Part shown: in pieces, positions 345-20,336 of the stretch
Numbering within the stretch: the stretch's first letter is position 1
How the letters are laid out: every line of letters begins with the position of its first letter
Assembly: GCA_028554795.2 (NCBI GenBank)
Contig: CM068839.1
Coordinates: forward strand, 90,926,182 to 90,990,181
Source of the DNA: Sinohyriopsis cumingii
Lineage: Eukaryota; Mollusca; Bivalvia; Unionida; Unionidae
DNA length: 64,000 nucleotides
Direction: 5' to 3'
Position numbers and translations under genes: made by a program
Notes under the pieces: generated by a model
The model's database searches: none
What the model saw: the letters and a program-made list of their open reading frames with translations, nothing else
Told to the model about the DNA's origin: nothing

Positions 345-384
345 TATCTCTTTTCGAGAAATATGGCTGGCCCTGAAAAGGGCC
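345..384 (-). terminator. Histone-type 3' processing signal (stem-loop plus downstream element) for the 76-aa gene
   Basis: On the minus strand: AAAGGCCCTTTTCAGGGCC (stem 369..374 with 379..384, loop TTTC), then the purine element CTCGAAAAGAGATA about 15 nt further on. It starts about 20 nt after the stop codon of the minus-strand gene 407..637. The match to the metazoan histone mRNA stem-loop consensus (GGCYCTTTTCAGRGCC) is exact. The 3' flank reads AGCCA here rather than ACCCA. Confidence 0.8.
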
Positions 385-406
385 TTTGGTTTATGTTAAT
401 ATGCCC

Positions 407-637
407 TTAACATAAAGGGCATTTGCGACATCTTCTTTTCCTCAAACTTCGTCTTACAGCAGGGCCATACATCAGAGTCCTCTTGAGGCAACCTTGTCTC
501 TCTATATAGACTCTTCTTATCCACAGACTGCTGTTGGTCCTGTGGACAACGGTCCACTTGGATCGGACATACATGAGCATGTCCGTCCTGAACATCATTG
601 TTGACACAAGGGTTGAAGATTCAACGTCGGTCCACAT
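407..637 (-). CDS. Small left-end protein, 76 aa, Cys/Arg-rich tail (unknown function)
   Basis: The family is not recognised. The protein is basic and ends in a compact Cys-rich tail (RRCRKCPLC). I judge it a real gene from its flanks rather than its sequence. A good TATA box (TATAAATA on the minus strand, 689..682) lies about 45 nt upstream of the ATG, and a histone-type stem-loop begins about 20 nt after the stop. It is divergent from the 188-aa gene at 857, sharing a 219-bp promoter region. The outermost position suggests an early or regulatory role, which is inference. A spurious ORF is possible but less likely given the flanking signals. Confidence 0.6.
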   Translation of the reverse strand: MWTDVESSTLVSTMMFRTDMLMYVRSKWTVVHRTNSSLWIRRVYIERQGCLKRTLMYGPAVRRSLRKRRCRKCPLC

Positions 638-856
638 GTTGAGGCTCCGAGAATAGGTGAATCAATGCAGTGAACTGCGCTTATTTATAGGGACAGAAAG
701 GATTGAAACGGATTGAGTTAATTCACCAATCCGAACACGCGTTACAGAATTCAGTCAGCCCGCATCCAATCCGAAGAGAGCAGTCTGTGACGTTACGTAG
801 TCAATATAGATTCGCTAGCGCTTGTGTGCAGTCAATCTATGCGATAGTGATTCAAC
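638..856. promoter_or_regulatory. Divergent promoter region with repeated CAATCCG boxes
   Basis: The region lies between two divergent genes. The minus-strand TATA is at 689..682 and a weaker plus-strand AATATAGA at 803..810, about 50 nt before the ATG at 857. Between them the heptamer CAATCCG or its complement CGGATTG occurs four times within 699..776, twice as part of a CCAAT motif (CCAATCCGAA). This looks like a shared upstream control region. Confidence 0.55.
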
Positions 857-1423
857 ATGACGGAAACTCAGAAAACGATCCAGTGGGGTGCACCAGCAGG
901 GGAGACCGCCCAAGGGAACCCGGACTTACTTTCAGAAGAGGTGAATTGGGATTTTGTGGATTTTCTCTCCTCGCAAGAATTTGTTCCGGAACCTTCGTTA
1001 CCTTCTTCATTACCGCAAGTGGAGAATTTTAGACAGAGACAGAAAGAAGAATTGGAGAAATTTATACAACGACAAAAGGAAGCCGAACAAGTTTTTCTCC
1101 TACAGCAACAGCAGCAAGAAGAAGTGGTAAGAAAAAAACAACAGCAAGAAGAAGTAGCAGCAAAGAAACAAGAGGGTGAAAATCAAACGGTCACGGTACT
1201 GTTGGACATTTTAGCGGAGTTAAGAAGTCTGAAACAAATGTATCAGACTTCTTTATTACGACCGAAGAGAATACGACCTTCCCGAGCTAAACACGTCAAC
1301 CCTGTGACTAAGCCTACCGTACCACCCTTAGTGATTTCAACCCAATCATTATCATCATTACGCAGTCCAGAAGTAGGCCTTGGCCGTGGCAAAGGCTTAA
1401 GGCAGTTAAAGTTGATTGCTTAA
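857..1423 (+). CDS. Coiled-coil protein with acidic-aromatic N-terminus, 188 aa (regulator-like)
   Basis: No family is recognised. Residues 25-45 form an acidic/aromatic patch containing VNWDFVDFL, which resembles acidic transactivation segments. Residues 55-105 are a Gln/Glu/Lys-rich coiled coil with polyQ runs. About residues 115-135 form a leucine-rich amphipathic helix, and a basic RPKRIRPSR stretch (about 138-146) could be a nuclear localisation signal. The ATG at 857 follows a TATA-like box at 803. The stop is 27 nt before a perfect histone-type stem-loop. Composition and placement are consistent with a small DNA-associated regulator, but this is inference. An overlapping frame at 703..1032 is a shadow. 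Confidence 0.7.
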   Translation: MTETQKTIQWGAPAGETAQGNPDLLSEEVNWDFVDFLSSQEFVPEPSLPSSLPQVENFRQRQKEELEKFIQRQKEAEQVFLLQQQQQEEVVRKKQQQEEVAAKKQEGENQTVTVLLDILAELRSLKQMYQTSLLRPKRIRPSRAKHVNPVTKPTVPPLVISTQSLSSLRSPEVGLGRGKGLRQLKLIA

Positions 1424-1448
1424 ACTCACCCCTTCACCATAAAGAAAA

Positions 1449-1492
1449 AAGGCCCTTTTCAGGGCCACCCACATTTCTCGAAAAGAAATACA
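1449..1492 (+). terminator. Histone-type 3' stem-loop and downstream purine element
   Basis: AAGGCCCTTTTCAGGGCC followed by ACCCA (stem 1451..1456 with 1461..1466, loop TTTC), then CTCGAAAAGAAATA at 1478..1491. This copy matches the consensus for replication-dependent histone mRNA 3' ends throughout the stem, loop and 3' flank. It lies 27 nt downstream of the stop at 1423. An AATAAA at 1681..1686 is a possible backup polyadenylation signal. Confidence 0.85.
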
Positions 1493-1716
1493 ATTTCAAT
1501 TTGCCAATAACTCAAAAAAAACCCACCCATTTTACCCTTATAGTACGTGTCTGTGTATGAGTGCGTGAGTGTAGCTTCTTATTTTAAAATCACAACTCAA
1601 AGACACTTACCTTATATCATTCATTTATTCTTTTCTCCATTTTTTTACAATCCAATTCACAATTCACAACACAACACTTTAATAAAAAGTTCATTGATTT
1701 CTTCTTTTCTCCTTGT

Positions 1717-2188
1717 TTAGTCTCTCTGTTTTTTGAATTTCTTCACCGTCACACTCTTTTCCTCTTCTTCTTCCTCCTCGCTTTCTTCCCTTCTTCTTTT
1801 TTTCTCCTGTTTCTTTTTCTTCACCTGTCTTCTTTCTTCCTCAGAAGAATCCCTCTCTTCCTCTGAAGAATCCCTCTCTTCTTCTGAAGAATTCCTCTTT
1901 TCTTCTGACTCCTCTTGTTTCTTTTTTGGGCAATCTGGAGACCAATGTCCTTTTTCTTTACAATAATAACAGGTATCTTGACTTTTGTCTTTTTTATCCC
2001 CTGTTTTTTCTTTTCTGACGGTCTGGACACTCTGAAGACCAATGCTCTTTCTTCTGACAGATATAGCAAGTATCTTGACTTTTATCTCTAAAGGAAGGAG
2101 AGTAGTCCGTAGGCTGGTCTGAAGAGAATTTTCTAATGACCCCTCGCAAAGCTCTGACGAAACGTTCCATCTGGTTAGTCTCTTCCAT
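1717..2188 (-). CDS. Double zinc-knuckle (CCHC) protein with charged tail, broken by a one-base frame shift
   Basis: Two adjacent CCHC knuckles are visible, CYICQKKEHWSSEC in the first frame and CYYCKEKGHWSPDC in the next, but they lie in different reading frames. The break falls in the A-rich tract around 2010-2020, which includes an A6 run. The span of 472 nt is one base more than a multiple of three, so a single extra base explains it. The start is placed at the ATG at 2188 because the TATA box at 2252..2241 would start transcription downstream of the ATG at 2236. The C-terminal half is made of SSEEERD repeats followed by Lys/Arg/Glu runs. A nucleic-acid-binding role is likely from the knuckles; the pathway is unknown. 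It is divergent from PolB. Confidence 0.65.
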
Positions 2189-2240
2189 CGTTGTGCTCGG
2201 CTTGAGAGTGAAATGAATAGTGAAAGGACAAGACACACAC

Positions 2241-2252
2241 CCTTTTATATAC
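2241..2252 (-). promoter_or_regulatory. TATA box of the zinc-knuckle gene
   Basis: GTATATAAAAGG on the minus strand, about 55 nt upstream of the ATG at 2188. Its position argues against the ATG at 2236. Confidence 0.7.
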
Positions 2253-2268
2253 GCTGGTCCGCTATGAC

Positions 2269-2275
2269 TATAAAG
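2269..2275 (+). promoter_or_regulatory. TATA box of PolB
   Basis: TATAAAG, 48 nt upstream of the PolB ATG at 2323. Together with the opposite TATA at 2252 it makes a compact divergent promoter. Confidence 0.65.
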
Positions 2276-2322
2276 TAGTTTATGGTGTTTGAACTTGAGT
2301 CATTTGACTTTTTGCTTTCAAG

Positions 2323-5300
2323 ATGAAACGATCCCATTCATTCGAGAAGAAAGAAGAAGAAAGTAAGAGGCAGAAACGTGATCTATCGCCTCGTACCAGG
2401 GCTGAAATCTTGGCACAAATTCATGCCAGTGATTTTGAAGAGGACATGAGTGAACCAGAATCCGAACCCTCTAACCCAAGTTCACCACCCTTACTCAACC
2501 CTGAAAAATACTATTCCATTCGAGAGACGGAAAAGCGCTCCTCTAGAAAATTTAGAACCACGGCTTACAAATACACAGTGAAGTTTAAAGATTTCAAGGC
2601 TGAAGTGCCGTTAGAGAAAGCAGAAGTGTTCATCACTGAGGTGTGGGATTCTTTGCTCACTGCACTCAAGCGACAATGTCAACCCAAAGAAGACGATCGC
2701 TTGAGACTTTCCATACAACACGACGGTTTGAAATCCCCTGTTTGGATCGAGTTTAGCACCCCTGCAGAATTGACTGCTTCCAAACTCATGGACAAGATTC
2801 AACACGTACAACAATCTAATGATCAGTTTGACATCACCGATGGTAAAGCCACACTGGACATGACCCACGTCTCTCCTCCTCAAGGGACAGGACGCAAAAA
2901 GATGTTATTGGTGGACGACCTTCGCAACACCAAAACGAGTCTCGTCCGAATTAACAACCCTCATGACCAGATGTGTTTAGCCCGTGCCATCGTGGTGGGA
3001 CGAACCTATGCCAACAAGAACGACACGGTAGAATGGAAAAGAACCTGGAACACTATTCAACGTTCCGACCGAGCCAAACAACGAAACGAAGCAGAACTCC
3101 TGTTACAACAAGCCGGACTGCCCAAAGACACACCCTGTGGCATTCCCGAGATGCAAAAATTGCAAGATGTCCTAGCTCCACGATACACCTTGAAAGTGCA
3201 CCCTCAAGAAATGCGCGGGCCTCTATTGTTTCGAGGCCAAGATTTTAAGGACGGAAAATACATTCACCTTTATCATCACGATGACCATTTCGATACCATT
3301 ACCAGTATCACTGGATTCCTGGGATATGCTTATTATTGTGAGAAATGTGACTATGGTTATAATAATCGAGAGCAACACAAACATTGTGGATGGAAATGCT
3401 CAGGATGTTTGGCCTCTCCACCCTGTCTGAGCGAAGAACCAGTGCCTTGTTCAACTTGTCTGCGCACGTTTGTCAGCCCTACCTGTTACCAACAACATTT
3501 GAAGACGCAAGGTTCACAGAAGAAATGCGCTTGTCAACTCCTGAGATTGTGCCCTACGTGTGGACAAGGCATACGTACCAATAATAACAAGGCACACGTA
3601 TGTTCAGGAAAGAAAAAATGTCACATTTGTCACCACATCGTGGACTTGGAACACCAATGCTACGTGCAAAAATACCAATCCCCACCAGAGAAAGAGGACG
3701 GTCACAAGAAGAAAGGCAATTTCATCTTTTTCGATTTCGAATGCATGCAAGAGACCGGCATTCACATTCCTAATTTTTGCGTGGCTCATCGAGCGTGCGA
3801 GAAGTGCATTCAAGAACCTATCTTCAGTCATTGCCCTCACTGCAGCAAGATTCCTGGAGGGCGTGAAAAAATCTTTCGGGGACCTAACACGTTAGCCGAT
3901 TTTGCCCAATGGGTCTTAGACCCCGTCGACAAGACATGGAGCCAAGAGGACATCGAACGTTACGGAGATTGTCATCGTCATGCCACGGTGATGGCTCACA
4001 ATTTCTCCGGATACGATGGACAGTTTCTTCTCAGATACTATACGGAACAAGGCACCGAGCGTCCTAAAGTGACTTTGAACGGAGCCAAAATCATTTTCAT
4101 GCAAGTGGGACAAGTACAGTTTAAAGATTCGATGAGCTATTAGGCCATGCCTTTGAGTCGAATGCCTAAAACGTTTGGAATGACAGAAATGGCTAAAGGG
4201 TACTTTCCACACTTTTTCAATACGGAAGCCAATCAACATGCCGTTCTACCCCATTTACCCGAGGCTCACTATTACGACCCCGACAACATGCGTACCGAAC
4301 AACGAGAAGCTTTCTACGCTTGGTACCAGATTCACGCCTCGGACCCTTTCGACTTTCAGGAAGAAATGCTAAAGTATTGTCGTTCCGACGTGGACATTTT
4401 ACGGCGTTGCTGTGGAAAATTTCGAGAACTGTTCATGGAACACGGAGGGGTCGATCCTTTGAAAGAAGCTTGCACCATTGCCAAAGCGTGTTCCTTAGTG
4501 TATCGACAACGATTCATGCCTGAAAAGACCGTGGCTGTCATCAGTCCTCAAACGACCCACTTTGTCAAACGTCAATACTCGGTCAAAGCCCTACGTTGGT
4601 TACATTACTTGTGCGACAAGGAAGACAAGTGGATTCAGCATGCCCGCAACGGAGGGGGCGAAAAGACCATCGGAACGTATTCGGTCGATGGCTGGGACTT
4701 AGAAAACCCCAAGATCGTGTACGAGTTTAACGGTTGCTTATTTCACGGATGTCCCGTCTGTTACCCTGACCGTGGCATTAAAAATCAGTTTTTGCAACGA
4801 ACCATGGAAGACTTGTACCAGGACACTTGTCAGCGACGCCTAAAGTTAGAACAGCAAGGATACCAAGTGGTGGAAATGTGGGAACACGAGTACGATCACC
4901 GTATGAGAACCGATCCCGAGTTTAAACGCCTCGTGGAAAGTTACCAGTTCATGGACCCGCTGAACCCGAGGGATAGTTTGTACGGAGGAAGGACCAATGC
5001 CACCTGTTTGCTGTACCAAGCCGACGAAGAGAAAGGAGAAGAAATCAAATACTTGGACGTGTGTTCGCTGTATCCCTACGTGTGCAAATATTGTCACTTT
5101 CCTGTAGGGCACCCGCAATTGCTGACGGAACACATCGACCTGGTCAACATTCGACAATACGACGGCTTGATCAAGTGCAAAGTTTTGCCTCCCACGAACC
5201 TATGCCATCCCGTCTTACCTCACCATTGTCAAGGCAAACTGATGTTTCCCTTGTGCCGTACTTGTGCCGAAACGTGCAACCAAGACCAGCCTTGTCAGCA

Positions 5301-6360
5301 CAGCCAGGAAGAACGGGCCTTGACGGGAACCTGGGTCAGCGTAGAATTGTTCAAAGCTCTGGACATGGGATACCAACTGTTAGAAGTGTACGAAATTTGC
5401 CACTTTCCCAAGACACAACAGTACCGCAAGGGTGATCCCAGTCAGAAAGGCATTTTCGCAGACTACGTGGATGCCTTTTTGAAACTGAAGCAAGAAGCCA
5501 GCGGCTATCCTTCCTGGTGTCACACTCCCGAAGACCAAATAAAATTCAAAGAGAAATATTACGAACAAGAAGGCATCACTTTAGACCACATCGAGAAAAA
5601 CGAAGGTAGGAGATCGTTTGCCAAAGTGATGTTAAATTGCTTGTGGGGTAAAATGGCACAACGACCGTGTTTACCCAAGACGGAATATTTGACAGAACCT
5701 TCCCGCTACTTCCAGATGATTCACGACAAAACCAAATACATGAAACACGTGGACGTCGTTCGAGAGAATTTGATCTTGGTCAATTACGAAGAAGATCTGG
5801 ACTTTGTACAAGACGACCCTTTTGGAAATGTTATCATTGCGGCTTACGTGACAGCCCATGCTCGCTTAAAATTGTACGAAGCTTTAGAACTGTTAGAAGA
5901 ACGCGTCCTGTACTTTGACACGGACAGTTGCATTTACATCCATCACCCGATTCAACATCACCCTAACATCGAAGGAGACCGTTTAGGAGCCTGGACAGAC
6001 GAGCATCCCGACGACAAGATTCTAAGTTTTGTCAGTGGCGGTCCCAAAAATTACGGCTACGAATACCGTGACAAACAAGGAGAAGTGCACACGACGTGCA
6101 AAGTGAAAGGACTGACTCTGAATTATCGTACCAGTCGAGTGGTCAACTTTGGGGTATTGAAAGAAGCCTTGCAATCGGGAGAAGATGGAAACTTTAAAGT
6201 GACCACCTATCAACCGAACAAGATTGTACGTTTACCCACTCACCACATCGTCAGTCGACCCTTGGAAAAAGTCTATCAAATCGTGTACCAGAAGCGAGTT
6301 CGACTTCCCAATCATTTCACCTTACCGTATGGACACGTTGGTATAAAACATTGGTTGTAA
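2323..6360 (+). CDS. Protein-primed family B DNA polymerase, interrupted by an in-frame TAG
   Basis: This is the replicative polymerase of the element, expected to copy the linear genome from protein-primed ends. The order read along one frame is: charged N-terminal region; a long Cys/His-rich zinc-binding region (about residues 340-450); exonuclease motif I FFDFE (about 470); exonuclease motif II NFSGYD (about 562); palm motif A DVCSLYP (about 909); motif B KVMLNCLWGK (about 1100); and motif C YFDTDS (about 1196). Palm residues DxxSLYP and DTDS are intact. One amber codon at 4141..4143 splits the frame into 606 and 737 codons without any frame change. This is either a nonsense mutation in this copy or, less likely, readthrough. 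The total of about 1,345 codons fits Polinton/adintovirus PolB. The start at 2323 follows a TATA at 2269. Confidence 0.93.
6342..6348 (+). promoter_or_regulatory. TATA box of the first BIR gene
   Basis: TATAAAA inside the last codons of PolB, 43 nt before the ATG at 6385. Confidence 0.6.
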
Positions 6361-6384
6361 GAGGATAGTTACCCCACCAGAAAG

Positions 6385-6843
6385 ATGACTTCGCCACAGC
6401 AAGAATCGAGTGAGAAACCCGATGAGAACTCCAAGTTCAAACCCTACCATTTTCCAGTCTTCTTACCTGACTATTGTGATTGTGCCCGTCGATTGGATAC
6501 GTTTCAGAAATGGCCTACGGATAGGGAAGGATTACCTTCTTCGCATGTTTTAGCTAGAACAGGATTTGTCTACTTGGGACCTGAGTCAGGATTGGGATAC
6601 GAGGTACAGTGTTTTGCTTGCGGACTGAAGTTACGAATGGATCTATGTATCTATAAAGATTCAGCTATTCTGGAACATACTCGATGGTCTCCGCACTGCC
6701 CTTACCTTTCTATGGCCTTTCCACCCATCACACTACGGTACAATGTTGACGGTACCTTAGAGACGGTACCTTCCAGAACAAGACATAAAAAACGTAAAAA
6801 AGGAAAGATGTACAAGCTGGAGACTGCATTGCGACTAGTATAA
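6385..6843 (+). CDS. BIR-domain (IAP-like) protein, 152 aa
   Basis: One baculovirus-IAP-repeat fold covers about residues 25-115. It opens with FLPDYCDCARRLDTFQKWP, carries LARTGFVYLG, and keeps the zinc ligands in CFAC and EHTRWSPHC. BIR proteins bind caspases or IAP antagonists and can block host apoptosis. That role is known for the family and inferred here. The tryptophan usually found shortly after the second cysteine is not obvious (KLRMDLCIY), so peptide binding may differ. The C-terminus is basic (RHKKRKKGK), and there is no RING finger. It is followed by a second BIR gene. Confidence 0.88.
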   Translation: MTSPQQESSEKPDENSKFKPYHFPVFLPDYCDCARRLDTFQKWPTDREGLPSSHVLARTGFVYLGPESGLGYEVQCFACGLKLRMDLCIYKDSAILEHTRWSPHCPYLSMAFPPITLRYNVDGTLETVPSRTRHKKRKKGKMYKLETALRLV

Positions 6844-6848
6844 AAAGG
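6839..6848 (+). promoter_or_regulatory. TATA box of the second BIR gene
   Basis: TATAAAAAGG overlapping the stop codon of the previous gene. Transcription would begin near 6868, so the in-frame ATG at 6903 is a more comfortable start than the ATG at 6867. Confidence 0.6.
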
Positions 6849-6866
6849 GGGCTATGGTCAAGATCG

Positions 6867-7640
6867 ATGGTTCATTTTGACTACCAAGACCGAGCGAACA
6901 AGATGAATACTTTGAAAAAGACATCGTTTCAGTTTGGGGATTGTAAAAAAGTTGTATCTTCCTCTAGTGTGACTAATATTGGATGGATAAGACCCAGGCA
7001 TTGCGATGGAAAATGTCCGGAAGGAAACTGCGATTGTCCATGTGGTTACCATTGTAATTGCGTAACGGAGTTTGCAGACGAGTGCGATTGTGAGCCTTGC
7101 GATGGATACGATGCTGTACCTTGTGACCTGAGCGATGCCGTAAAGCATCATGGGAACTTTGTTCTCACTGCCCCTATCATAGAAAGTGATGCTGTGCGTG
7201 TCAAACCTGAGGGATGCGAAAGCGATGCCGCTCGTCCTCTTAGACATTTTACCGGGTTTAAAGGGGAATGTCGACCTTCACGTTTACCTCCCTACGGATG
7301 TCATCCAGCCCTGAGAAAACTCCTGTTCCTGTCACCCAACCCTCATCGAAACGAACCTGTGAAAGACGAATATTCGTTCCCTGTGCGTTTGTCGGAATAC
7401 TGCGACTTTGAAAATCGTCTTCAATCGTTCAAAGGAAAATGGCCAAAGTATCTGGGAGGACCGACCCCTGAAGAATTAGCCAGAGCCGGATTTTTCTACT
7501 TGGGCGAAGGAGATAAAGTCAAGTGCTTCAGTTGCGGTGTGTCACTTCACCACTGGGAACCGCAAGATTCGGCCTACGTTGAACATGCTCGATGGTCACC
7601 GAATTGTCATTACTTACCTTTAGTGGGACCGAGACATTGA
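6867..7640 (+). CDS. BIR-domain (IAP-like) protein with Cys-rich N-terminal region, 257 aa
   Basis: The C-terminal BIR domain (about residues 168-255) is canonical: YCDFENRLQSFKGKWP, LARAGFFYLGEGDKVKCFSCG, HHWEPQDSAYVEHARWSPNC, with all four zinc ligands and the binding-groove tryptophan. Residues 45-80 form a separate Cys-rich stretch (repeated CxC and CxxxC) that is not a RING finger and that I do not recognise. The first ATG is at 6867, but the TATA at 6839 favours the in-frame ATG at 6903 (245 aa). It is likely an apoptosis inhibitor paralogous to the upstream gene. Its domain is closer to consensus, so it is the better candidate for caspase or IAP-antagonist binding. Confidence 0.9.
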   Translation: MVHFDYQDRANKMNTLKKTSFQFGDCKKVVSSSSVTNIGWIRPRHCDGKCPEGNCDCPCGYHCNCVTEFADECDCEPCDGYDAVPCDLSDAVKHHGNFVLTAPIIESDAVRVKPEGCESDAARPLRHFTGFKGECRPSRLPPYGCHPALRKLLFLSPNPHRNEPVKDEYSFPVRLSEYCDFENRLQSFKGKWPKYLGGPTPEELARAGFFYLGEGDKVKCFSCGVSLHHWEPQDSAYVEHARWSPNCHYLPLVGPRH

Positions 7641-7668
7641 AGTAACTTCTTACCATAATAATCTGTTC

Positions 7669-8124
7669 ATGGATACTTTACAAGAGAACATTCGTGCTTT
7701 GCCTGTGGAGTTGAGAGAACGCATTTACCGAGAGCTGGTCAAAATATAAGTCAAACGTAAAGAACAATTGCATCCGATACGTCACCAGATCTTTAACCAC
7801 TGGTACCTTCAGGCTATACAAGGACTGATTGAGTTGAAAGTGTTCCATTGGACAGACATTGATCAACGACCTCCTGGTTATAAAAAGGAATCGTTTGGTA
7901 TGGACGATTCTATCTACTACATTGTAAACGTACTGCATCGAATTCCAGAGGAAGAGTTAACGAATTACCAACATCTTGAACACAATGTCAACTTGGTGAA
8001 AGAGGAAACTTCTGAACGAATTGTAATGTATAGATTAGTGACTCAACGATTTAAATTCGACACTGAAGTAAAACCATGTTTGTGCAAACAGTACATTTCT
8101 TGTGTCAGACCAAAGAGGATTTAG
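7669..8124 (+). pseudogene. F-box-like protein, first tandem copy, broken by an early stop
   Basis: The first 26 codons are almost identical to those of the gene at 8137, then TAA at 7747..7749 occupies the place of a CAA in that copy (a single C-to-T change). The frame then stays open to 8124 with recognisable homology (HQIFNHWYL, EEETS). The N-terminal ALPVELRERIYREL resembles the start of an F-box, which would recruit a Skp1-Cullin ubiquitin ligase; this is a weak motif-level guess. An internal ATG at 7768 leaves a 118-codon frame, but it lacks the N-terminal motif. Confidence 0.7.
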
Positions 8125-8136
8125 TATAACCTATTC

Positions 8137-9329: not shown

Positions 9330-9345
9330 AAAAAAAAAAAAATTC

Positions 9346-9351: not shown

Positions 9352-9367
9352 CGTGTTCTGAAAAAAG

Positions 9368-11399: not shown

Positions 11400-11461
11400 T
11401 CCCAGAAAAAAAAGATAAAAGGGTGTGTGTTAAGTCATCGACGTTAGTGTCTGTTTGGTGA

Positions 11462-11872: not shown

Positions 11873-11921
11873 AAAGGCCTTCGGAAGTCCCAAGATCTCA
11901 GAATTCACCCCTGACAACCCC

Positions 11922-12632: not shown

Positions 12633-12658
12633 CACACCAACACACAAAAAATAAAAAA

Positions 12659-13771
12659 ATGGAAAAAGTCTTAGCCAGCATTTACTACGATCCCTCGCAT
12701 CCTGCAGGTTACGCAGGAGTTCAAAAATTGTATCGTGCTGCCAAAACTCGACTGAAAAGTCTCCGTTTACCTCAAGTGCAACGATGGTTACAAGAACAAG
12801 CTACCTACACTTTACACAAACCCATTCGACGCAAGTTTGCCAGAAGTCGCACCCGAGTGGAAGGCATCGATCATCAATGGCAAGCCGATTTAGCCGATGT
12901 CTCTCATTTGGCCAGCTACAATCGTGGTTACAAATATTTGTTTTGTGTCATCGACGTCTTTTCCAAATTTGCCTGGGTCGTGCCTTTGACTTCCAAATCC
13001 AGCAGCGAGTTAGTGCGAGCCCTGCAACGGGTGTTGAAACAAAGCGGTCGTCGCCCTCTTCGATGGCAAACGGACAAAGGCACCGAATTTCTGAACCAAG
13101 CTTTCCAAAAAGAATTAAAGAAACGTGACATTCATTTTTTTACCACCGAGAATCCCGAAACCAAAGCCAGCATCGTGGAACGTTTTCAACGCACTTTGAA
13201 AGAACGCATGTGGAAATATTTTACGCATCACCACACTCTGAAGTGCATCGACATCTTACCGCACCTGGTGCAAGCGTACAACCAATCTTACCATCGAAGC
13301 ATCGGACGTGCCCCGCAAGACGTGACTCCCGACAACGAAGTGCTGGTGTTTGAGCGTCTGTTCGGTACGTCCCCGACGAGGGCTGTCCCCAAAAAAAGTG
13401 GAGAGTTGACCGTAGGAGATTGGGTGCGCATTGGCAAAACCAAACGCACTTTCGACAAAGGTTACTTACCTAACTGGACGACCGAACTGTTTCGCGTCAC
13501 TGGACGAGTACATGGCCGTCATCCTACCGTCTATAAATTGGAAGACATGAACGGAGAAGTGCTCAAAGGAACGTTTTATTTGCCCGAGTTACAACGTGTC
13601 ACCAAAAAAGAAGACGACGTGTACGACATCGAAAGCATTCTCGAACGCAGAACCCGTAAAGTGGGCAAACGACGTGTCAAAGAAGTCAAAGTACGTTGGA
13701 AAGGATATCCACCCAGTTTCGATTCTTGGATCGACGCTTCGCAAGTCATCGACTATAAAAAGAAGAAGTGA
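12659..13771 (+). CDS. Retroviral-type DDE integrase with C-terminal chromodomain, 370 aa
   Basis: It joins the element ends to host DNA. The catalytic triad is visible: D in WQADLADV (about residue 80), D in RWQTDKGTEF (about 139) and E in ASIVERFQRT (about 175). The HHCC zinc domain is not obvious; a helical N-terminus takes its place. The C-terminal about 50 residues form a chromodomain (YDIESILERR, VRWKGYPPSFDSWI), as in many Polintons and chromoviruses, which could steer insertion to modified chromatin. The start is the ATG at 12659; the frame is open upstream to 12617 without need. Confidence 0.95.
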   Translation: MEKVLASIYYDPSHPAGYAGVQKLYRAAKTRLKSLRLPQVQRWLQEQATYTLHKPIRRKFARSRTRVEGIDHQWQADLADVSHLASYNRGYKYLFCVIDVFSKFAWVVPLTSKSSSELVRALQRVLKQSGRRPLRWQTDKGTEFLNQAFQKELKKRDIHFFTTENPETKASIVERFQRTLKERMWKYFTHHHTLKCIDILPHLVQAYNQSYHRSIGRAPQDVTPDNEVLVFERLFGTSPTRAVPKKSGELTVGDWVRIGKTKRTFDKGYLPNWTTELFRVTGRVHGRHPTVYKLEDMNGEVLKGTFYLPELQRVTKKEDDVYDIESILERRTRKVGKRRVKEVKVRWKGYPPSFDSWIDASQVIDYKKKK

Positions 13772-13776
13772 CCATC

Positions 13777-14199
13777 ATGCCCTTTCACACAGCAGCAGAC
13801 GCAGCTACGTCGACCAGTCCTTCTTCCCCTAGTTCTTCTGTGCAAGATTTACAAAAACAACCCTTGTGGGTGTGGTGTGGAGAACGTGTGCCTAAAACGC
13901 AAATCGTCTTTTTCTGCCAAATCTTCGTGGTGTATTGTGTCATCGGGGCAGCCATCGCCAATTTGAGTTTGCAACAAGGAGACAAACAATTGTGGACCAT
14001 TTTATTGAGCAGTTGCATCGGTTACCTGCTTCCCAATCCCTCCCTGAAATTCTCCTCGAACGGGAACGTTGTGTCCAGTGCCAGTGTCAGTGCCAGTCAC
14101 CACTCCAACAACCACAACCAGAACCCCATTTTGGGCGGAGACACGCCTCTGACATCCAGTAATATCCCCTCGGACAGCCACAGAACTCTGGAATTATGA
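13777..14199 (+). CDS. Two-TM membrane protein, 140 aa (conserved Polinton type)
   Basis: It has a Ser-rich N-terminus, then WCGERVPKTQIVFF leading into one hydrophobic helix (about residues 46-67) and a second (about 77-92) ending IGYLLPNPSLK, then a Ser/Asn/His-rich tail. The pattern VPKxQIVFF...NLS...LLSS-IGYLLP recurs in Polintons, function unknown. The start is the ATG at 13777. The stop overlaps the ATG of the penton-like gene (ATGA), so the two are likely translated from one transcript. Confidence 0.75.
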   Translation: MPFHTAADAATSTSPSSPSSSVQDLQKQPLWVWCGERVPKTQIVFFCQIFVVYCVIGAAIANLSLQQGDKQLWTILLSSCIGYLLPNPSLKFSSNGNVVSSASVSASHHSNNHNQNPILGGDTPLTSSNIPSDSHRTLEL

Positions 14200-15131
14200 G
14201 TCACCAAAACCAATTTTACTTAACCTTATCCAGTGACAGTTCCATGGAGGTGTTTCCCAACAACACGTTGTGCTGTTACACGGCCAAATTACCTCAAGCC
14301 ATCCCCTTAGATCACGAAGCCCATTGGGAAGTGGCTTTAGTGGAAATGATTCACCCAACCCAAGTCCACAATATCACTGCCCAGCAAAATTGGTTTAAGG
14401 TGGAAGTTCATGACAAACAATTGCAAGAGGAGTTGGATAAGATTGGCACATCTACCAATAAAACCTATGATGACAAAACTAAAACGACCACCTACAACTT
14501 GTTGATTCTCCCAGGCTATTATTTCAGTGGTCATCATTTGGTCAGCGCCATAGCCTCTAGGTTTAATGGCGTGTTCCATAAAGCTTTGAGTAATGTCCAA
14601 AAAAGTGTCACCCTGGAATACCACAAAATAGCTCGTCGCTTTCTGATGAAATTTTCTGAGGGGTCCAAAAAATTCATGTCTTTCTTATTTTGTCCTGAAT
14701 TGTTTGACATATTGGGCGGTGACACGGAGATGAGAATGGTCATGATGAAGAAAAACGAATTGCCAGTCATTTCCGACAACGATATTTTTGCGAGGTATTT
14801 TCGTTTCCCGGTAGAACTGAACCAAGGACTGAATTTGATCTTTGTGTATTCCGATGTGGTGGAATACAACGTGGTGGGACACACCTCCGTGCCGTTACTG
14901 CGTGTCATTCCTTTCAAAGTGGATTCTGCCACAAACGCTGACGAGGAAGGTGGAAACACTTACCACGTCCACCGCGAATTTGTCCATCCTCACTATTTGC
15001 CGGTCAGCAAGTCGTATTTGGACACGGTCAACATTACTATAAAAGGAGATTTGGGACAAAATATTCCATTCACCAAAGGAAAAGTCACGGTGAAACTCCA
15101 TTTTCGAAAACGGTTCTCTCACGACTCGTAA
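14196..15131 (+). CDS. Penton-like minor capsid protein, 311 aa
   Basis: The start FYLTLSSDSSMEVFPNNT and HWEVALVEMIHP are the signature of the Polinton/adintovirus minor capsid protein, a jelly-roll protein thought to form pentons at capsid vertices. No large insertion is seen. It overlaps the upstream membrane protein by 4 nt and is followed after 7 bp by the pVI/pX-like gene, the usual Polinton order. Confidence 0.88.
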   Translation: MSHQNQFYLTLSSDSSMEVFPNNTLCCYTAKLPQAIPLDHEAHWEVALVEMIHPTQVHNITAQQNWFKVEVHDKQLQEELDKIGTSTNKTYDDKTKTTTYNLLILPGYYFSGHHLVSAIASRFNGVFHKALSNVQKSVTLEYHKIARRFLMKFSEGSKKFMSFLFCPELFDILGGDTEMRMVMMKKNELPVISDNDIFARYFRFPVELNQGLNLIFVYSDVVEYNVVGHTSVPLLRVIPFKVDSATNADEEGGNTYHVHREFVHPHYLPVSKSYLDTVNITIKGDLGQNIPFTKGKVTVKLHFRKRFSHDS

Positions 15132-15138
15132 GCAAGTC

Positions 15139-15555
15139 ATGTATCCAGTGTACCAAGGGGTGGCTCGACAGCGAGGACACGGTTTAGGAGACATGTTAAA
15201 ATCGGCCTTTCGTTCGGTGGCCCCGGTGTTGAAACCGATGGTGACACGCGGATTGCACGCCTTGAAAGATGCGGCACTGACACAAGGCAAAGAATTTCTC
15301 CAAAATGTCATCATCGACAAACAAAACCCTAAAGAAGCCTTCATGAGGGCAGGCAAAAATGTCTTGCTGCAAACGGGCAAAGACCTTTTGGGCCGACGAG
15401 ACACACCTATAAATGCCCTGCACGCTACCGAGTCAGGCATTCAGCAAGGACAAGGTAGAAAGAGACGACGAAGAAAACACCCTTTCACCAGACTTCAAGC
15501 GAGAAAGGCCAAGAAAAGAAGAACCGTTCGAGACTTAGACGTTTTCGATTATTGA
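15139..15555 (+). CDS. pVI/pX-like basic minor capsid protein, 138 aa
   Basis: The N-terminal RQRGHGLGDMLKSAFRSVAP is followed by an amphipathic helical region and a C-terminal Arg/Lys cluster (GRKRRRRKHP, RKAKKRR). This layout (Gly-rich start, amphipathic helix, basic tail) matches the Polinton equivalents of adenovirus protein VI or X, which act in membrane disruption or DNA binding. A TATAAAAGG at 15039 may drive it and the downstream capsid gene. Confidence 0.75.
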   Translation: MYPVYQGVARQRGHGLGDMLKSAFRSVAPVLKPMVTRGLHALKDAALTQGKEFLQNVIIDKQNPKEAFMRAGKNVLLQTGKDLLGRRDTPINALHATESGIQQGQGRKRRRRKHPFTRLQARKAKKRRTVRDLDVFDY

Positions 15556-15572
15556 AACACAGCAACAAAAAA

Positions 15573-16901
15573 ATGATGCACCGAGAGTCTTGTGCTTGTT
15601 CCAAGACGGAACTGGATATGTTTGCCATGCCCCCCACCATGATGACCATGCAAGAATCCCAATGGGTGGAATTTCATCCCGTCTCCTCATTGACGGAATC
15701 AGCTCCCATCGAGTTCGAAATCAAAGGACAACCCGAAGATTACATCGATCTGAATAGCAGTTACCTGTATTTGAAAGTCAAAGTGATCAAAACTGACAAC
15801 ACCAATCCTGGAGCCAATGATAGGGTAGCGCCCGTCAACAATTTCATGCATTCCTTGTTCAGCGAAGTGGACTTGTACTTGAATAACAAACTGGTCAGTA
15901 GCAGCATGGATACTTACCCGTATCGCGCCTACCTGGAAAATCTCTTGACGTACGGAAAAGAAGCCAAGAACACTCATCTGGATGCTTGCGTAGTATGGAA
16001 ACCTGACACGACCGGTATAACCACGTTTAGCGACACAGCCCTGACAGAAGATGGCAATCCTCACAATGTGGGGTTTAACACACGTAGAACTAAAATTAAG
16101 GAAGGGCGAAGTTTAGAACTGATGGATCGTTTGCATTTGGACATGTGGTTACAAGAAAAGTATTTGCTGAACGGAGTGGATATCCGTCTGAGACTGAATC
16201 GTAGCAGTGCCGCTTTCCATTTGATGGCCCATACCAATGAATACAAAACTGTTATCCAAGAAGCCAAGCTCTACGTGCGTCGCGTAGAAGTGTTACCTAA
16301 AGTGGGAAACGATATCAGTCAAACGTTAAGCAGAACAACCGCCAAGTATCCCATACGACGCGTAGAAGTGAAAACCTTCACCATTCCTGCTGGACAGCGA
16401 TCCATGATCGAAGATCATCTGTTCCAAGGACAGTTACCCAAGCGTTTGAGTGTTGGTATCGTCAAGAATACAGCCTTCAACGGAGTCCACAACGAAAATC
16501 CTTTTGAGTTTAAGCATTACAATGTGTCCAAGATCGAAGTCAGTCGCGATGGCAAGACCTTGTGTACCCGACCTTTCGAGCCTAACTTTGGTGAGGCAAA
16601 GAATTATTTGAGATCGTACTTGTCCCTGTACGAAGCTACCGGACAGTTAGGAACCAACACCAGTCACGGCATTACGTACGACGATTATGCAGGAGGCTAT
16701 GCTTTGTGGGCTTTCGATTTCACTCCAGACCAAGGCAGCGACGAGGGACATTTCCACCCTATAAAATCTGGCCAGATTCGTGTGGAAATTCAGTTTGCGA
16801 GTGCACTGGAAGCAGGGAACACGGTGAACGTCATCCTGTATGCCGAATTTGATAATACGATAGAAATCAACAGTTTAAGAGAAGTCATCCTAGATTACTA
16901 G
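15573..16901 (+). CDS. Double-jelly-roll major capsid protein (hexon-like), 442 aa
   Basis: It forms the trimeric capsomers of the icosahedral shell. Typical Polinton MCP signatures are present: YIDLNSSYLYLKVKV and VNNFMHSLFSEVDLYLNNKL in the first jelly roll, and RRVEVKTFTIPAGQRS and LYAEFDNTIEIN in the second. Length is in the usual 430-480 aa range and no break is seen. The start is the ATG at 15573; upstream in-frame codons to 15552 lack an ATG. It lies between the pVI-like and Cys-rich genes, followed by the protease. Confidence 0.95.
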   Translation: MMHRESCACSKTELDMFAMPPTMMTMQESQWVEFHPVSSLTESAPIEFEIKGQPEDYIDLNSSYLYLKVKVIKTDNTNPGANDRVAPVNNFMHSLFSEVDLYLNNKLVSSSMDTYPYRAYLENLLTYGKEAKNTHLDACVVWKPDTTGITTFSDTALTEDGNPHNVGFNTRRTKIKEGRSLELMDRLHLDMWLQEKYLLNGVDIRLRLNRSSAAFHLMAHTNEYKTVIQEAKLYVRRVEVLPKVGNDISQTLSRTTAKYPIRRVEVKTFTIPAGQRSMIEDHLFQGQLPKRLSVGIVKNTAFNGVHNENPFEFKHYNVSKIEVSRDGKTLCTRPFEPNFGEAKNYLRSYLSLYEATGQLGTNTSHGITYDDYAGGYALWAFDFTPDQGSDEGHFHPIKSGQIRVEIQFASALEAGNTVNVILYAEFDNTIEINSLREVILDY

Positions 16902-16906
16902 AAGAC

Positions 16907-17398
16907 ATGGAAGACTGTTATCCCTCTTTACCTAGTGGAGACACTTTGGAGATGGAATGTGAGGAGACCGTAGAAAAAGAAGAAGAAGAAGTGATCATGA
17001 TGAAATCGAGATGGCCAGAACAAGAAGCCCATTTAGTCTCCTGTTTTGCCAAACACTTGGTCGACAAAATGACGGAATTGATCAAGAAAAATTGCTATGG
17101 ATGTCAAAACGATCATCCCAGTCAAATTCAACACGATAAATGCCTGATGTTAAGTCAAGAAGAAAAATTGGACGAGTATCTGGACGAAGCTTGGAGTCTC
17201 ATCTCGAACAAAGACGTGTTGCACCAGTGGTATAAAGACTTGCGTGAACATTCTTGTCCACCATTAACCACTCAAGAGATCCATCGTATCGAAGCTCTCC
17301 TGAATCAGAGTGAGGAAACAGAACGAATAACCGTTTATTCGTCAGACATTTTCAAGCAAAAAGTCAGGATCGAATTGACGACGTATTATTACCTGTGA
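16907..17398 (+). CDS. Cys-rich conserved Polinton protein, 163 aa
   Basis: An acidic N-terminus (EKEEEEV) is followed by a CYGCQNDHPSQIQHDKC signature (about residues 62-78) that could bind zinc, then a helical C-terminal part. This 'CxGCxxxxxSQxxHxxC' pattern recurs beside Polinton capsid genes; function unknown. It starts 6 bp after the MCP stop. Confidence 0.75.
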   Translation: MEDCYPSLPSGDTLEMECEETVEKEEEEVIMMKSRWPEQEAHLVSCFAKHLVDKMTELIKKNCYGCQNDHPSQIQHDKCLMLSQEEKLDEYLDEAWSLISNKDVLHQWYKDLREHSCPPLTTQEIHRIEALLNQSEETERITVYSSDIFKQKVRIELTTYYYL

Positions 17399-17421
17399 AG
17401 AAGAAAACCACACACAAATCA

Positions 17422-17982
17422 ATGGATACCTGGGAACTTTATTACCTTTTGAACCACAGTTCGTATACGTCTTCTTGGAATCCTGTCGTCTGTGCTAAAG
17501 ATGAACTCCCTCATCGCAAACCTAAAGACCATCAAGCTTACGTGATCAACACGGACGACAGTCATCTCCCAGGAACCCACTGGGTAGCCGTCTACTTTCC
17601 TCAAGAAGGATGTGTGGAATATTTCGATTCGTATGGATTGCCTCCTTTGGAAGACGATATCATCGACTTTATGAGAAGAAATGCTCAAACCACCCGATTC
17701 AATAATGTGAAATTACAAGGAACAGATTCCTTGGTGTGTGGACAGTACTGTGTGTATTTTCTGCATCATCGCAGCCTGGGCTATTCCTTAGAACATTTAG
17801 TGACTCATTTCGATCCTCGTTCTTCTGCTAGAAACGATGTGAAAGTAGATCGATGGTTTTGTGACCATTATGCTTATCTTTTGTCTCAAGCTAGGAAACG
17901 TAGTGTCCATCAATGGCCTAATGATTTCCAACAGTGGAAATCACAATTTCATTCACAACGTTGTCAGCCCTGTTTAAAGTAG
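17422..17982 (+). CDS. Adenain-type cysteine protease, 186 aa
   Basis: Maturation protease of the ULP1/adenain fold, expected to trim capsid precursors. The catalytic residues are visible: His in GTHWVAVYF (about residue 54), Asp in EYFDSYG (about 71), Gln in LQGTDS (about 104) and Cys in VCGQYC (about 112). The start is the ATG at 17422; the frame is open upstream to 17395 through non-ATG codons overlapping the previous gene. It is the last gene of the structural block, with AATAAA 114 nt downstream. Confidence 0.93.
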   Translation: MDTWELYYLLNHSSYTSSWNPVVCAKDELPHRKPKDHQAYVINTDDSHLPGTHWVAVYFPQEGCVEYFDSYGLPPLEDDIIDFMRRNAQTTRFNNVKLQGTDSLVCGQYCVYFLHHRSLGYSLEHLVTHFDPRSSARNDVKVDRWFCDHYAYLLSQARKRSVHQWPNDFQQWKSQFHSQRCQPCLK

Positions 17983-18095
17983 ATTGTCCATTGAGAAAAA
18001 AATGTTTGTGATTTGAAAAAAATTGTTTGATGTTATAGTGTTATATTATTGTTAAAAAAATGTTAGAGTTGTTGTTTAGTGTTAAGTGATTTTTG

Positions 18096-18101
18096 AATAA
18101 A
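18096..18101 (+). terminator. Polyadenylation signal for the structural block
   Basis: AATAAA in an AT-rich spacer after the protease. No stem-loop is found here, unlike the genes further right. Confidence 0.6.
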
Positions 18102-18229
18102 AATGTTGTGTTTTGAAAAAATGCCTTTGTGGTTTGTTTAGCTATAAGACTGTTGGATTGATGCTCTTTCATTTCTTACTATCCCTCTCATGACACTCAC
18201 TGAAACGTTGCGGCTCGAAAACCGTGTGA

Positions 18230-18265
18230 GGGATGTTTTCCTTCACGTCCGCGCTTTGACTTTAA
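18230..18265 (+). promoter_or_regulatory. Right-arm promoter box, copy 1
   Basis: GGGATGTTTTCC followed by TTCACGTCCGCGCTTT, then a TATA-like TTTAAGAA at 18258, about 60 nt before the ATG at 18320. The 28-bp box is identical in the promoters at 19124 and 19812. Confidence 0.75.
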
Positions 18266-18319
18266 GAACCTGGTTGTTCCCAGTCTAGCCATCCATTGTC
18301 GACTCATCCTCCTACGAAG

Positions 18320-18691
18320 ATGTGCTCCAAACTAGCTAAGCTCAACGAAGCCTACGTGAATCTGCATAGGGTCAGACACAGTCTGATACCGAAGCCAGAA
18401 GAAATAGAGAATGTGAGAATGTTAAAAATCACTGAAGACCTGATAGAAGAGCTCTTCAGAGAAGAAATGAACAGGGAGAAAGAAGAATGGACAGAGAAGT
18501 ACAGACTTCAGAGACAGCAGCAACAGCAGCAACAACAACAACAACAGCAGCAGCAGCAGCAGCAACCTGAACCTGACAGAGGCTTTGTCGATTGTCGTAT
18601 CGACACCAAAGAGTTCTTCTTCTCTTTCCGAAGAAGCAGACCTATCGCCAGAAAGTCTATCCTCAGAGGACATCGCATTCTTAGAAACTAA
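18320..18691 (+). CDS. Right-arm coiled-coil protein A with polyQ, 123 aa
   Basis: No known family. The helical N-terminus (KLAKLNEAYVNLHRVRHSL) resembles those of the two following genes. A charged helix and a polyQ tract of about 17 residues follow, then a basic Arg-rich tail. The start is the first ATG after the conserved promoter box; in-frame codons upstream to 18296 lack ATG. A histone-type stem-loop begins 35 nt after the stop. Confidence 0.65.
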   Translation: MCSKLAKLNEAYVNLHRVRHSLIPKPEEIENVRMLKITEDLIEELFREEMNREKEEWTEKYRLQRQQQQQQQQQQQQQQQQQPEPDRGFVDCRIDTKEFFFSFRRSRPIARKSILRGHRILRN

Positions 18692-18724
18692 AAAAAGAAT
18701 GCCATAGCAAAACAAAAAAAAAAC

Positions 18725-18768
18725 CCAGCCCTTTTCAGGGCTACCCAATACTCTAGAAAAGAAATAAC
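18725..18768 (+). terminator. Histone-type 3' stem-loop and downstream element, copy A
   Basis: AGCCCT-TTTC-AGGGCT (18727..18742) then ACCCA, then CTCTAGAAAAGAAATA at 18751..18766. AATAAA at 18807..18812 may be a backup signal. The segment from the stem-loop through the AATAAA is nearly repeated at 19611. Confidence 0.8.
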
Positions 18769-19123
18769 AATCGATTTGCCAATGTGTGTAGGTAGAGTAG
18801 TGTGAAAATAAACACTAACTCTTTTTTAAAAAAAATGTGAGGGTATGTGTTTGTGTGTTTGTGTGTTTGTGTTTGTAAGTGATAAAGTAGGTTGGTGTGG
18901 ATAGTAGATTAAAATGATGTTTGTTTTTTTGGGCTATTTGAGGTGTAAATTTGGGGTTAGATTGGATTGCTTTGCATATGTAAATAGTCTATTGAAGTGA
19001 TTTATAAAAAAATTTATAATAGTGATGGGTAGCATAAAAAAGTGAGTGAGTGTTTCTTTTAGGTCCGCGCGTTGTTGTTGTTTTTTGGTCATGATCTAGG
19101 TAAGATGAATTTTATGTTTTTAG
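18769..19123 (+). other. Spacer with repeat-derived sequence between right-arm genes A and B
   Basis: No gene is seen. It contains the AATAAA at 18807, a GT-rich run near 18840-18880, and a partial promoter-like piece (GGTCCGCGCGTTG near 19062) followed by GGTCATGATCTAGGTAAGAT, which recurs at 19775. This fits an older duplicated cassette that has decayed. Confidence 0.6.
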
Positions 19124-19161
19124 GGGATGTTTTCCTTCACGTCCGCGCTTTCAGTATAAAT
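19124..19161 (+). promoter_or_regulatory. Right-arm promoter box, copy 2
   Basis: Same box as at 18230, ending in TATAAAT at 19155..19161, about 58 nt before the ATG at 19213. Confidence 0.78.
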
Positions 19162-19212
19162 TGAAACTCGTTCGGCAGTCCAGCTACCCTTGTTGATTGA
19201 TCAACACCAAAA

Positions 19213-19581
19213 ATGAACACGAGACTGGAGAAACTGTTGGAACTTCATGTGCATCTGGAATATGCCAGGCGCATATTAAATGAACTGGCCGCTGAAGCCA
19301 TTGTCGAGGAGGGAAGGATAAGAGAGGAGGAAAGAAGAAACAAAGAAGAGGAGGAGAGAAGATATAAAGAAGAAGAGGAAAGAAGATACAAAGAGGAGGA
19401 GAGAAGATACAAAGAAGAGGAGGAGGAAAAGGAGAGAAGAAAAAATTTCAGAATCCCAGAGAGTGAAAATTGGGATTCTGAAGCGACATATCCTGCCTCT
19501 GCTCTCTCCCCCCAAAAGGTAAAAAGTAACTGGGGGATAAGATGTGTATGTGGCGCCAGGCCTGGAAGGTGCCACCATTAA
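19213..19581 (+). CDS. Right-arm coiled-coil protein B, 122 aa
   Basis: The N-terminal helix (LEKLLELHVHLEYARRIL) is similar in pattern to protein A. Then come degenerate Glu/Arg/Lys repeats (EEERRYKEE, repeated about four times) forming a long single alpha-helix or coiled coil, and a short Cys-containing tail (CVCGARPGRC). Flanked by the shared promoter box and a stem-loop 29 nt after the stop. Function unknown. Confidence 0.65.
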   Translation: MNTRLEKLLELHVHLEYARRILNELAAEAIVEEGRIREEERRNKEEEERRYKEEEERRYKEEERRYKEEEEEKERRKNFRIPESENWDSEATYPASALSPQKVKSNWGIRCVCGARPGRCHH

Positions 19582-19608
19582 CCAGGTGTCCATGAAGTTC
19601 CAAACAAA

Positions 19609-19652
19609 ACAGCCCTTTTCAGGGCTACCCAATACTCTAGAAAAGAAATAAC
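19609..19652 (+). terminator. Histone-type 3' stem-loop and downstream element, copy B
   Basis: Stem 19611..19616 with 19621..19626, loop TTTC, ACCCA, then CTCTAGAAAAGAAATAAC. AATAAA follows at 19691..19696. Nearly identical to copy A over about 100 bp. Confidence 0.8.
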
Positions 19653-19742
19653 GATCGATTTGCCAATGTGTGTAGGTAGAGTAGTGTGAAAATAAACACT
19701 AACTCTTTATTAGGGTTATATTATATGAAATGAGAAAGTAGG

Positions 19743-19768
19743 GGGATGTTTTCCTTCACGTCCTTGCG
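19743..19768 (+). promoter_or_regulatory. Orphan copy of the right-arm promoter box
   Basis: GGGATGTTTTCC then TTCACGTCCTTGCG, without a TATA box or a following gene. It is probably a remnant of a duplicated cassette. Confidence 0.6.
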
Positions 19769-19811
19769 TTGTCGGGTCATGATCTAGGTAAGATCAATTT
19801 TATGTTTTAGG

Positions 19812-19850
19812 GGGATGTTTTCCTTCACGTCCGCGCTTTTCGTATAAGAA
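19812..19850 (+). promoter_or_regulatory. Right-arm promoter box, copy 3
   Basis: Full box followed by TATAAGAA at 19843..19850, 55 nt before the ATG at 19898. The preceding 35 bp (GGTCATGATCTAGGTAAGAT...) also match the copy upstream of 19124. Confidence 0.78.
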
Positions 19851-19897
19851 CCCACAGTATTAGTTGTTCAAACCATTCTGCAAAGAATAAAAAGAAG

Positions 19898-20278
19898 ATG
19901 GCGTCAAACCAAATGGACAAAATACAAACCTTGCAAGACGTTTTAGACAACTTAGGAATAATGGAACAGATGCTAATAAGACTGGTTGAAGACCATTATT
20001 CCTATAGTCCCCATCGTGTAAAGATGGAAATTAACAATTTAAGAAAAGCAAAGGACAAGATTAGTGGTGTGATGAAGGAAATAAAGGAGGAGAAGGAGGA
20101 TGAAGAGGAAAAGATAAGAATAAGAACATGGAACGAAAAAATTGAAAAAGAAGAGGAAAATGAGAAGAGGAAGAAAGAAGAGGAGGAGGAAGAGAAGAAA
20201 GAAGAGGAGGAGAAAAAAAAGAAGAGAAAGAGTGTTGGAGATAAAATAAGAAGTTGGTGGAGGAAAAGAAGAAATTAG
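19898..20278 (+). CDS. Right-arm coiled-coil protein C, 126 aa
   Basis: The helical N-terminus (MDKIQTLQDVLDNLG, MLIRLVEDH) is like proteins A and B. A long Glu/Lys-rich helix follows, then a basic tail ending RSWWRKRRN-like. Last gene of the element; its histone-type stem-loop lies 20 nt after the stop, inside the right TIR. The three right-arm proteins share architecture more than sequence and may be diverged paralogues. Confidence 0.65.
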   Translation: MASNQMDKIQTLQDVLDNLGIMEQMLIRLVEDHYSYSPHRVKMEINNLRKAKDKISGVMKEIKEEKEDEEEKIRIRTWNEKIEKEEENEKRKKEEEEEEKKEEEEKKKKRKSVGDKIRSWWRKRRN

Positions 20279-20295
20279 AAGCAGAAGAAAACCCA

Positions 20296-20336
20296 AAGGC
20301 CCTTTTCAGGGCCCCCATATATCTCGAAAAGCGATA
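20296..20336 (+). terminator. Histone-type 3' stem-loop and downstream element, copy C (inside right TIR)
   Basis: AAAGGCCCTTTTCAGGGCC (20296..20313) then CCCCA, then CTCGAAAAGCGATA. It is the TIR counterpart of the signal at 345..384. Confidence 0.8.

Follow-up and report, generated by a model that had tools for sequence, protein, structure and literature searches.

Histone-type 3′ stem-loops downstream of the outer genes of a Polinton-type element in the bivalve Sinohyriopsis cumingii

Can a virus-like mobile element end its messages with the signal that closes histone mRNAs? The question is raised by a 64,000-nucleotide stretch of the genome of the bivalve Sinohyriopsis cumingii (GenBank assembly GCA_028554795.2, contig CM068839.1, positions 90,926,182 to 90,990,181 of the forward strand), hereafter the window, which holds at 64..20616 a Polinton of 20,553 bp (element 1), recognised by reading of the sequence, by alignment of its terminal inverted repeats (TIRs) and by Pfam matches. 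Replication-dependent histone mRNAs are, according to an excerpt of PMC10388802, the only known metazoan mRNAs without a poly(A) tail. An initial annotation of the window had pointed to five hairpins of the histone type behind small genes of element 1, and had proposed that they direct processing by the stem-loop binding protein (SLBP) and the U7 small nuclear RNA (snRNA). The analysis reported here finds the five hairpins in place, each behind a gene whose product matches no histone family, and leads us to consider it quite likely that they are histone-type 3′ ends matured by the SLBP/U7 processing of the host.

The hairpin motif RGCCCTTTTCAGGGCY has five exact matches in the 64-kb window, all of them in element 1 and precisely where the initial annotation had placed them: 369..384 on the minus strand, and 1451..1466, 18727..18742, 19611..19626 and 20298..20313 on the plus strand (copies 1 to 5, in this order). 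With up to two mismatches, five were again found against 0.08 expected, and none of 100 shuffles reached this number. A scan of the window with all 4227 Rfam families, which included the covariance model proposed as a check by that annotation (RF00032, Histone3; gathering score 34), matched the five hairpins at 345-389 (copy 1, 35.2 bits, E 1.7e-6), 1446-1490 (copy 2, 41.2 bits, E 9.6e-9), 18722-18767 (copy 3, 27.1 bits, E 1.8e-3), 19606-19651 (copy 4, 31.0 bits, E 6.4e-5) and 20293-20337 (copy 5, 30.7 bits, E 8.2e-5), with no further match to the model up to E 1 in the 64 kb. Copies 1 and 2 exceed the gathering score. Of the 20 Rfam matches listed, the remaining 15 are to microRNA families; they fall on simple repeats, and none reaches the gathering score of its family.

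A closer view of the hairpins shows that the sole variable pair of the six in the stem (positions 6-21) changes in a compensatory manner, G-C being replaced by A-U at the stem base of copies 3 and 4, probably in one event. The guanine at stem position 7, in the second pair from the bottom and paired with position 20, is kept in all five hairpins; this is the residue that SLBP requires, as stated in an excerpt of PMC10388802. The 3′ part of the signal agrees with what had been claimed: the ACCCA flank is exact in three hairpins (1451, 18727 and 19611) and reads AGCCA in copy 1 and CCCA in copy 5, and a purine element, expected 10-20 nt downstream, is found past each hairpin. This element has the form CTC(TA)GAAAAGNNATA in 5/5 copies, with GAAAAG beginning 13, 13, 13, 13 and 12 nt past the hairpin in copies 1 to 5. 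Altogether, the covariance model, the flanks, the SLBP guanine and the position after stop codons described below bear out the assignment of these hairpins as 3′-end signals of the histone-mRNA type.

Two other origins of such hairpins have to be considered here, namely chance and convergence. In IMG/VR, the bare 19-mer hairpin pattern without flanks occurs at 12 loci in 11 contigs, none of which reaches the RF00032 gathering score, and the five loci that were scored, together similar in length to the window, gave 17.1-24.8 bits versus 27-41 bits for the five hairpins of the window. The hairpin plus ACCCA had no IMG/VR locus with a TTTTC loop and three with a looser loop, one of which matches RF00032 at E ≤ 1 (27.5 bits); this match lies antisense within an open reading frame (ORF) and was taken as chance. 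The hairpin plus ACCCA pattern derived from the window retrieves there three of the five hairpins and nothing else; in 257 Gb of prokaryote genomes it has 6 matching stretches. A chance origin of the hairpins was rejected on the RF00032 matches, the shuffle counts, their placement after stops and the rarity of the pattern in prokaryote genomes. Convergence would make the hairpin an element of the virus's own DNA or RNA, acting in TIR-linked replication, packaging or transcription termination, with a likeness to the histone signal that arose independently. In favour of this idea, two of the five copies are located in the TIRs and the same hairpin in some IMG/VR contigs resembles, by eye, an intrinsic terminator; however, three copies are internal, all five outscore the bare hairpin of the five scored IMG/VR loci, and all agree in how they are oriented to a gene and in having the purine element at much the same distance, which makes this explanation highly improbable in our view.

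The placement of the hairpins relative to genes is the second line of evidence. All five are in sense orientation and start 22, 27, 35, 29 and 19 nt past a stop codon (copies 1 to 5), very near the 20-35 nt that had been indicated. For a site and strand drawn at random, the probability of falling no more than 40 nt past any of the 24 ORF stops listed is 0.023; the fifth power of this value is not relied on because the five hairpins are not independent. The genes involved encode a small product of 76 amino acids (407-637, minus strand, hairpin 1), a Q-rich, charged one of 188 (857-1423, plus strand, hairpin 2) and, all on the plus strand, a charged, Q-rich product of 123 (18320-18691, hairpin 3), a charged, glutamate/arginine-rich one of 122 (19213-19581, hairpin 4) and a charged, lysine/glutamate-rich one of 126 (19898-20278, hairpin 5). 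Their ORFs exceed the lengths found in Markov shuffles of the respective stretch (p 0.004 for the ORF of 76 amino acids, and 0/2000 for each of the other four). None of the five products matched a Pfam family above the cut-off or a Pfam histone family at E ≤ 0.1, and no LxCxE motif was found in them; the product of 18320-18691 aligns weakly with those of 19213-19581 (29% identity) and 19898-20278 (24%).

On their 5′ side, these genes carry TATA-like boxes (TATAAA, TATAGA, TTTAAG, TATAAA and TATAAG for copies 1 to 5) that begin 52, 52, 59, 58 and 55 nt upstream of the start codon, patterns that were picked after seeing the sequences and stand without a shuffle control. The three right-hand hairpin genes are preceded by copies of a 21-bp promoter element, GGGATGTTTTCCTTCACGTCC, which is found at 18230..18250 on the plus strand and in exact copies at 19124, 19743 and 19812; a search allowing three substitutions finds no further match in the window. 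A short query, GGAAGGAAAAC, gave many noise matches with three substitutions and these were discarded. The two left-hand genes, 407-637 (minus) and 857-1423 (plus), diverge from a region of 219 bp with two CCAAT boxes, a weak excess since the window has 2.1 CCAAT/ATTGG per kb. A second hairpin with an 8-bp stem, whose pairing was read by eye on the minus strand as ATGCCCTT-TATGTT-AAGGGCAT, is present at 401-422 and shares bases with the stop codon that shortly precedes hairpin 1.

How many times the signal was fixed is a different matter, as copies 1 and 5 lie in the inner parts of the two TIRs and copies 3 and 4 lie within a duplication (18718-18828 and 19602-19712) of 111 nt and 95% identity. 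With a TIR pair and a recent duplicate pair, the five hairpins reduce to about three independent lineages. A gapless comparison of two of them, copies 2 and 3, showed that 14 of 16 positions are kept in the stem-loop and 12 of 16 at positions 13-28 past the hairpin, which comprise the purine core, versus 14 of 30 just upstream of the stem-loop and 7 of 20 further downstream. Counts against copy 5 were 2-6 of 12-16, and these understate its likeness owing to a one-base gap past its hairpin, for which a gapped alignment allows. This pattern bears on the possibility that the signals were captured from the 3′ end of a host histone gene, duplicated inside the element, and persist now as relics without a role. 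The polymerase frame of element 1 is interrupted and copies 3 and 4 are recent duplicates, as such a history would have it, but between lineages the stem-loop and the purine core are kept amid diverged sequence on the 5′ side and farther out on the 3′ side, the stem change is compensatory and all five hairpins still follow an ORF. We thus regard the relics as improbable.

The initial annotation had also stated that the central genes of element 1 use AATAAA instead of the hairpin. In this regard, AATAAA at 9346, 12650 and 18096 does end central gene blocks, 16, 17 and 113 nt past their last ORFs; the general claim fares less well, with 11 AATAAA on the plus and 10 on the minus strand of element 1 against 9.75 expected, that is, a chance density, and with this motif also present 64 nt beyond hairpins 3 and 4 (18807 and 19691) and 214 nt beyond hairpin 2. 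A polyadenylated form is therefore possible for the genes of hairpins 3 and 4. The hairpins might then bind SLBP or another factor for the stability or translation of mRNAs that are polyadenylated at the downstream AATAAA, the hairpin being internal to the 3′ untranslated region (UTR), and the human H2AC18 gene is reported to use both pathways in an excerpt of PMC9756948. Against this, the AATAAA sites occur at chance density, the spacing between hairpin and purine element is kept in 5/5 copies and would not be needed by an internal element, and copies 1 and 5 run into the TIRs, with no AATAAA or ATTAAA within 300 nt of the stop of the copy 5 gene and a single ATTAAA, 105 nt past the stop, in the copy 1 gene. 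For these reasons an internal hairpin followed by polyadenylation seems unlikely to us.

Maturation by the histone pathway, the reading that we prefer, has to be weighed against a number of observations of its own, to which the AATAAA motifs beyond hairpins 3 and 4 and the small number of independent lineages belong. Three of the five hairpins are under the gathering score of RF00032, and the weakest copy alone proves little, since a chance match of 27.5 bits can be found among millions of contigs. The minimal SLBP site comprises, according to an excerpt of PMC10388802, two 5′ adenines and one 3′ adenine. The AA before the stem is present in copies 1, 2 and 5, whereas the 5′ flank of copy 3 is CCC, with both adenines gone, and that of copy 4 ends in AC, with C beside the stem and one adenine replaced; the 3′ adenine is kept in four of the five hairpins and is missing in copy 5, and copies 3 and 4 have A for G at stem position 6. 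Moreover, the complementarity of the downstream elements to U7 snRNA, another part of the initial proposal, finds no support so far. Duplex energies with the 5′ ends of human and fly U7, scored against mononucleotide shuffles, gave p 0.02-0.73; of the 10 combinations, the two of fly U7 with copies 1 and 2 reached p ≤ 0.05, and pairing with these two RNAs would thus appear inconsistent. Finally, this particular copy of element 1 may be non-functional, because an in-frame stop splits its polymerase frame into two ORFs.

Even so weighed, the preferred reading translates into a defined series of events, for which SLBP binding, U7 pairing, cleavage, the absence of poly(A) and the linkage to S phase are what we infer. 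The five outer genes are short, single-ORF units with the architecture of histone genes, having a TATA-like box, a short leader, a small ORF and a short 3′ UTR, where the 6-bp stem with its 4-nt loop is followed 12-13 nt on by the purine-rich element. Host SLBP would bind the hairpin and the U7 small nuclear ribonucleoprotein of the host would recognise the purine element, for which the U7 stretch complementary to GAAAAGAAAUA would read about UAUUUCUUUUC. The pre-mRNA would be cut just past the hairpin, and the mature viral mRNAs, ending in the hairpin without poly(A), would follow histone mRNAs in their export, translation and decay, and would thus be made mainly in cells replicating their DNA. 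We lean towards a broader picture of a eukaryotic DNA virus lineage with two classes of mRNAs, polyadenylated ones for the core genes and non-polyadenylated ones for the outer genes, the latter matured by the histone machinery of the host, timed to S phase and escaping poly(A)-based control or shutoff. A clean split into these classes is put forward as a proposal, because AATAAA is at chance density and also follows copies 3 and 4 at 64 nt.

A comparison with known systems helps to place these hairpins. With the histone 3′ UTR stem-loop of RF00032 they share the 6-bp stem, the UUUC loop, ACCCA or a near version of it and the purine element 12-13 nt on, and with histone genes at large the short distance from stop to hairpin and compact genes with TATA-like boxes. 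Unlike histone genes, the hairpin genes of element 1 encode non-histone products in a mobile element, two of the copies have A-U at the stem base, and the pairing with U7 is putative. As for adintoviruses and Polintons (Mavericks), element 1 has in common with them a type B DNA polymerase (PolB), an rve integrase with a chromodomain, an A32-like ATPase, an adenain-like protease, TIRs and a 6-bp duplication, and differs in its histone-type 3′ ends and in the tandem small charged genes that share a promoter element. A match to RF00032 in a coronavirus genome is described in an excerpt of PMC7786107, with 14.7 bits and inside a coding region, in contrast with the 27-41 bits of the five copies of element 1, each past a stop codon. 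A search of open-access literature, covering titles and abstract openings among the matches listed, found no report of histone-type 3′ ends for DNA viruses, Polintons and adintoviruses included, which is no proof of novelty.

Within the literature searched, the outer genes of element 1 would, if the reading is true, be the first example of viral, non-histone genes that use the SLBP/U7 pathway. The rule that histone mRNAs alone lack poly(A) in metazoans would be broken by a viral element using the signal on five non-histone genes, and a virus could couple expression to S phase through the choice of its 3′ ends. Such genes would also offer natural non-histone substrates for testing what the hairpin alone confers, and RNA data selected for poly(A) would miss part of the transcriptome of these viruses, which is checkable in total-RNA data. 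More generally, the signals suggest that part of the gene expression of element 1 relies on the host machinery for histone messages, and the expression of its outer genes may be tied to DNA replication.

The carrier itself has the features of its class. The 6-bp direct repeat CATATC is found on both sides of element 1 (58-63 and 20617-20622), a target duplication of the size typical of Polintons. The left TIR (64..397) holds hairpin 1 in its inner part and the right one (20285..20616) holds hairpin 5; their alignment, 59-397 with 20285-20621, starts inside the target duplication and has 324 of 339 columns identical. A 45-bp tandem repeat, with 3.8 copies in each TIR, extends over 118-287 and 20393-20562. 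The PolB region (2323..6360, plus strand, as all genes that follow) comprises two ORFs in the same frame, 2323-4143 and 4147-6360, the second of which matches DNA_pol_B_2 in Pfam (E 2.2e-33). Two adjacent BIR-domain genes, probably of the inhibitor-of-apoptosis type, come next (6385-6843 and 6867-7640; Pfam E 2.3e-14 and 1.4e-23), followed by the A32-like packaging ATPase (9422..10165, Pfam E 1.3e-7) and by the rve integrase with its C-terminal chromodomain (12659..13771, Pfam). Further downstream lie 14196-15131, a small ORF and 15573-16901, of which the first and the last are a putative penton and a putative hexon (major capsid protein), names given from resemblance and without a library match. 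The adenain-like cysteine protease (17422..17982) has a weak match (6lj9, E 2.5e-4; Peptidase_C5, E 0.0084, below the cut-off).

PolB, rve integrase, A32-like ATPase and cysteine protease are the defining gene set of Polintons, and element 1 contains the four of them (the protease with its weak match) together with TIRs and the 6-bp duplication; it is probably an integrated Polinton of the adintovirus type. The definition of adintoviruses, in an excerpt of PMC11071296, includes an rve integrase with a C-terminal chromodomain, which is present in element 1, a PolB with an N-terminal OTU-like domain, and a hexon that BLASTp can link to those of known adintoviruses. The first polymerase ORF (2323-4140) matched no Pfam family at E ≤ 0.001, the OTU-like domain included, no Pfam family matched the putative hexon at E ≤ 10, and the fold model of the putative capsid protein was unusable (predicted local distance difference test score, pLDDT, of 40).

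Relatives of element 1 were also looked for in IMG/VR, where none was found with the putative capsid protein, the integrase, the C-terminal ORF of PolB, a two-row alignment of the ATPase or a PolB-motif pattern; phage records gave five distant polymerase matches. One of the IMG/VR contigs with a bare hairpin (L011) has two matches to type II hammerhead ribozymes above the gathering score and a sub-threshold match to twister-P1, these being located at 13-80, 3487-3538 and 5897-5960, with the twister-P1 match directly after the hairpin. Within the window, a second, Polinton-like element (element 2, 29022-43628), which had no RF00032 match up to E 1, is bounded by TIR arms at 29022-29178 and 43472-43628 (81% over 157 nt) and encodes a double jelly-roll protein (PF21738), an rve integrase, an A32-like ATPase, an AAA-domain protein and an HNH endonuclease. 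Pieces resembling a retrotransposon were recognised by eye at 53100-56003, among them a reverse-transcriptase-like ORF at 55341-56003.

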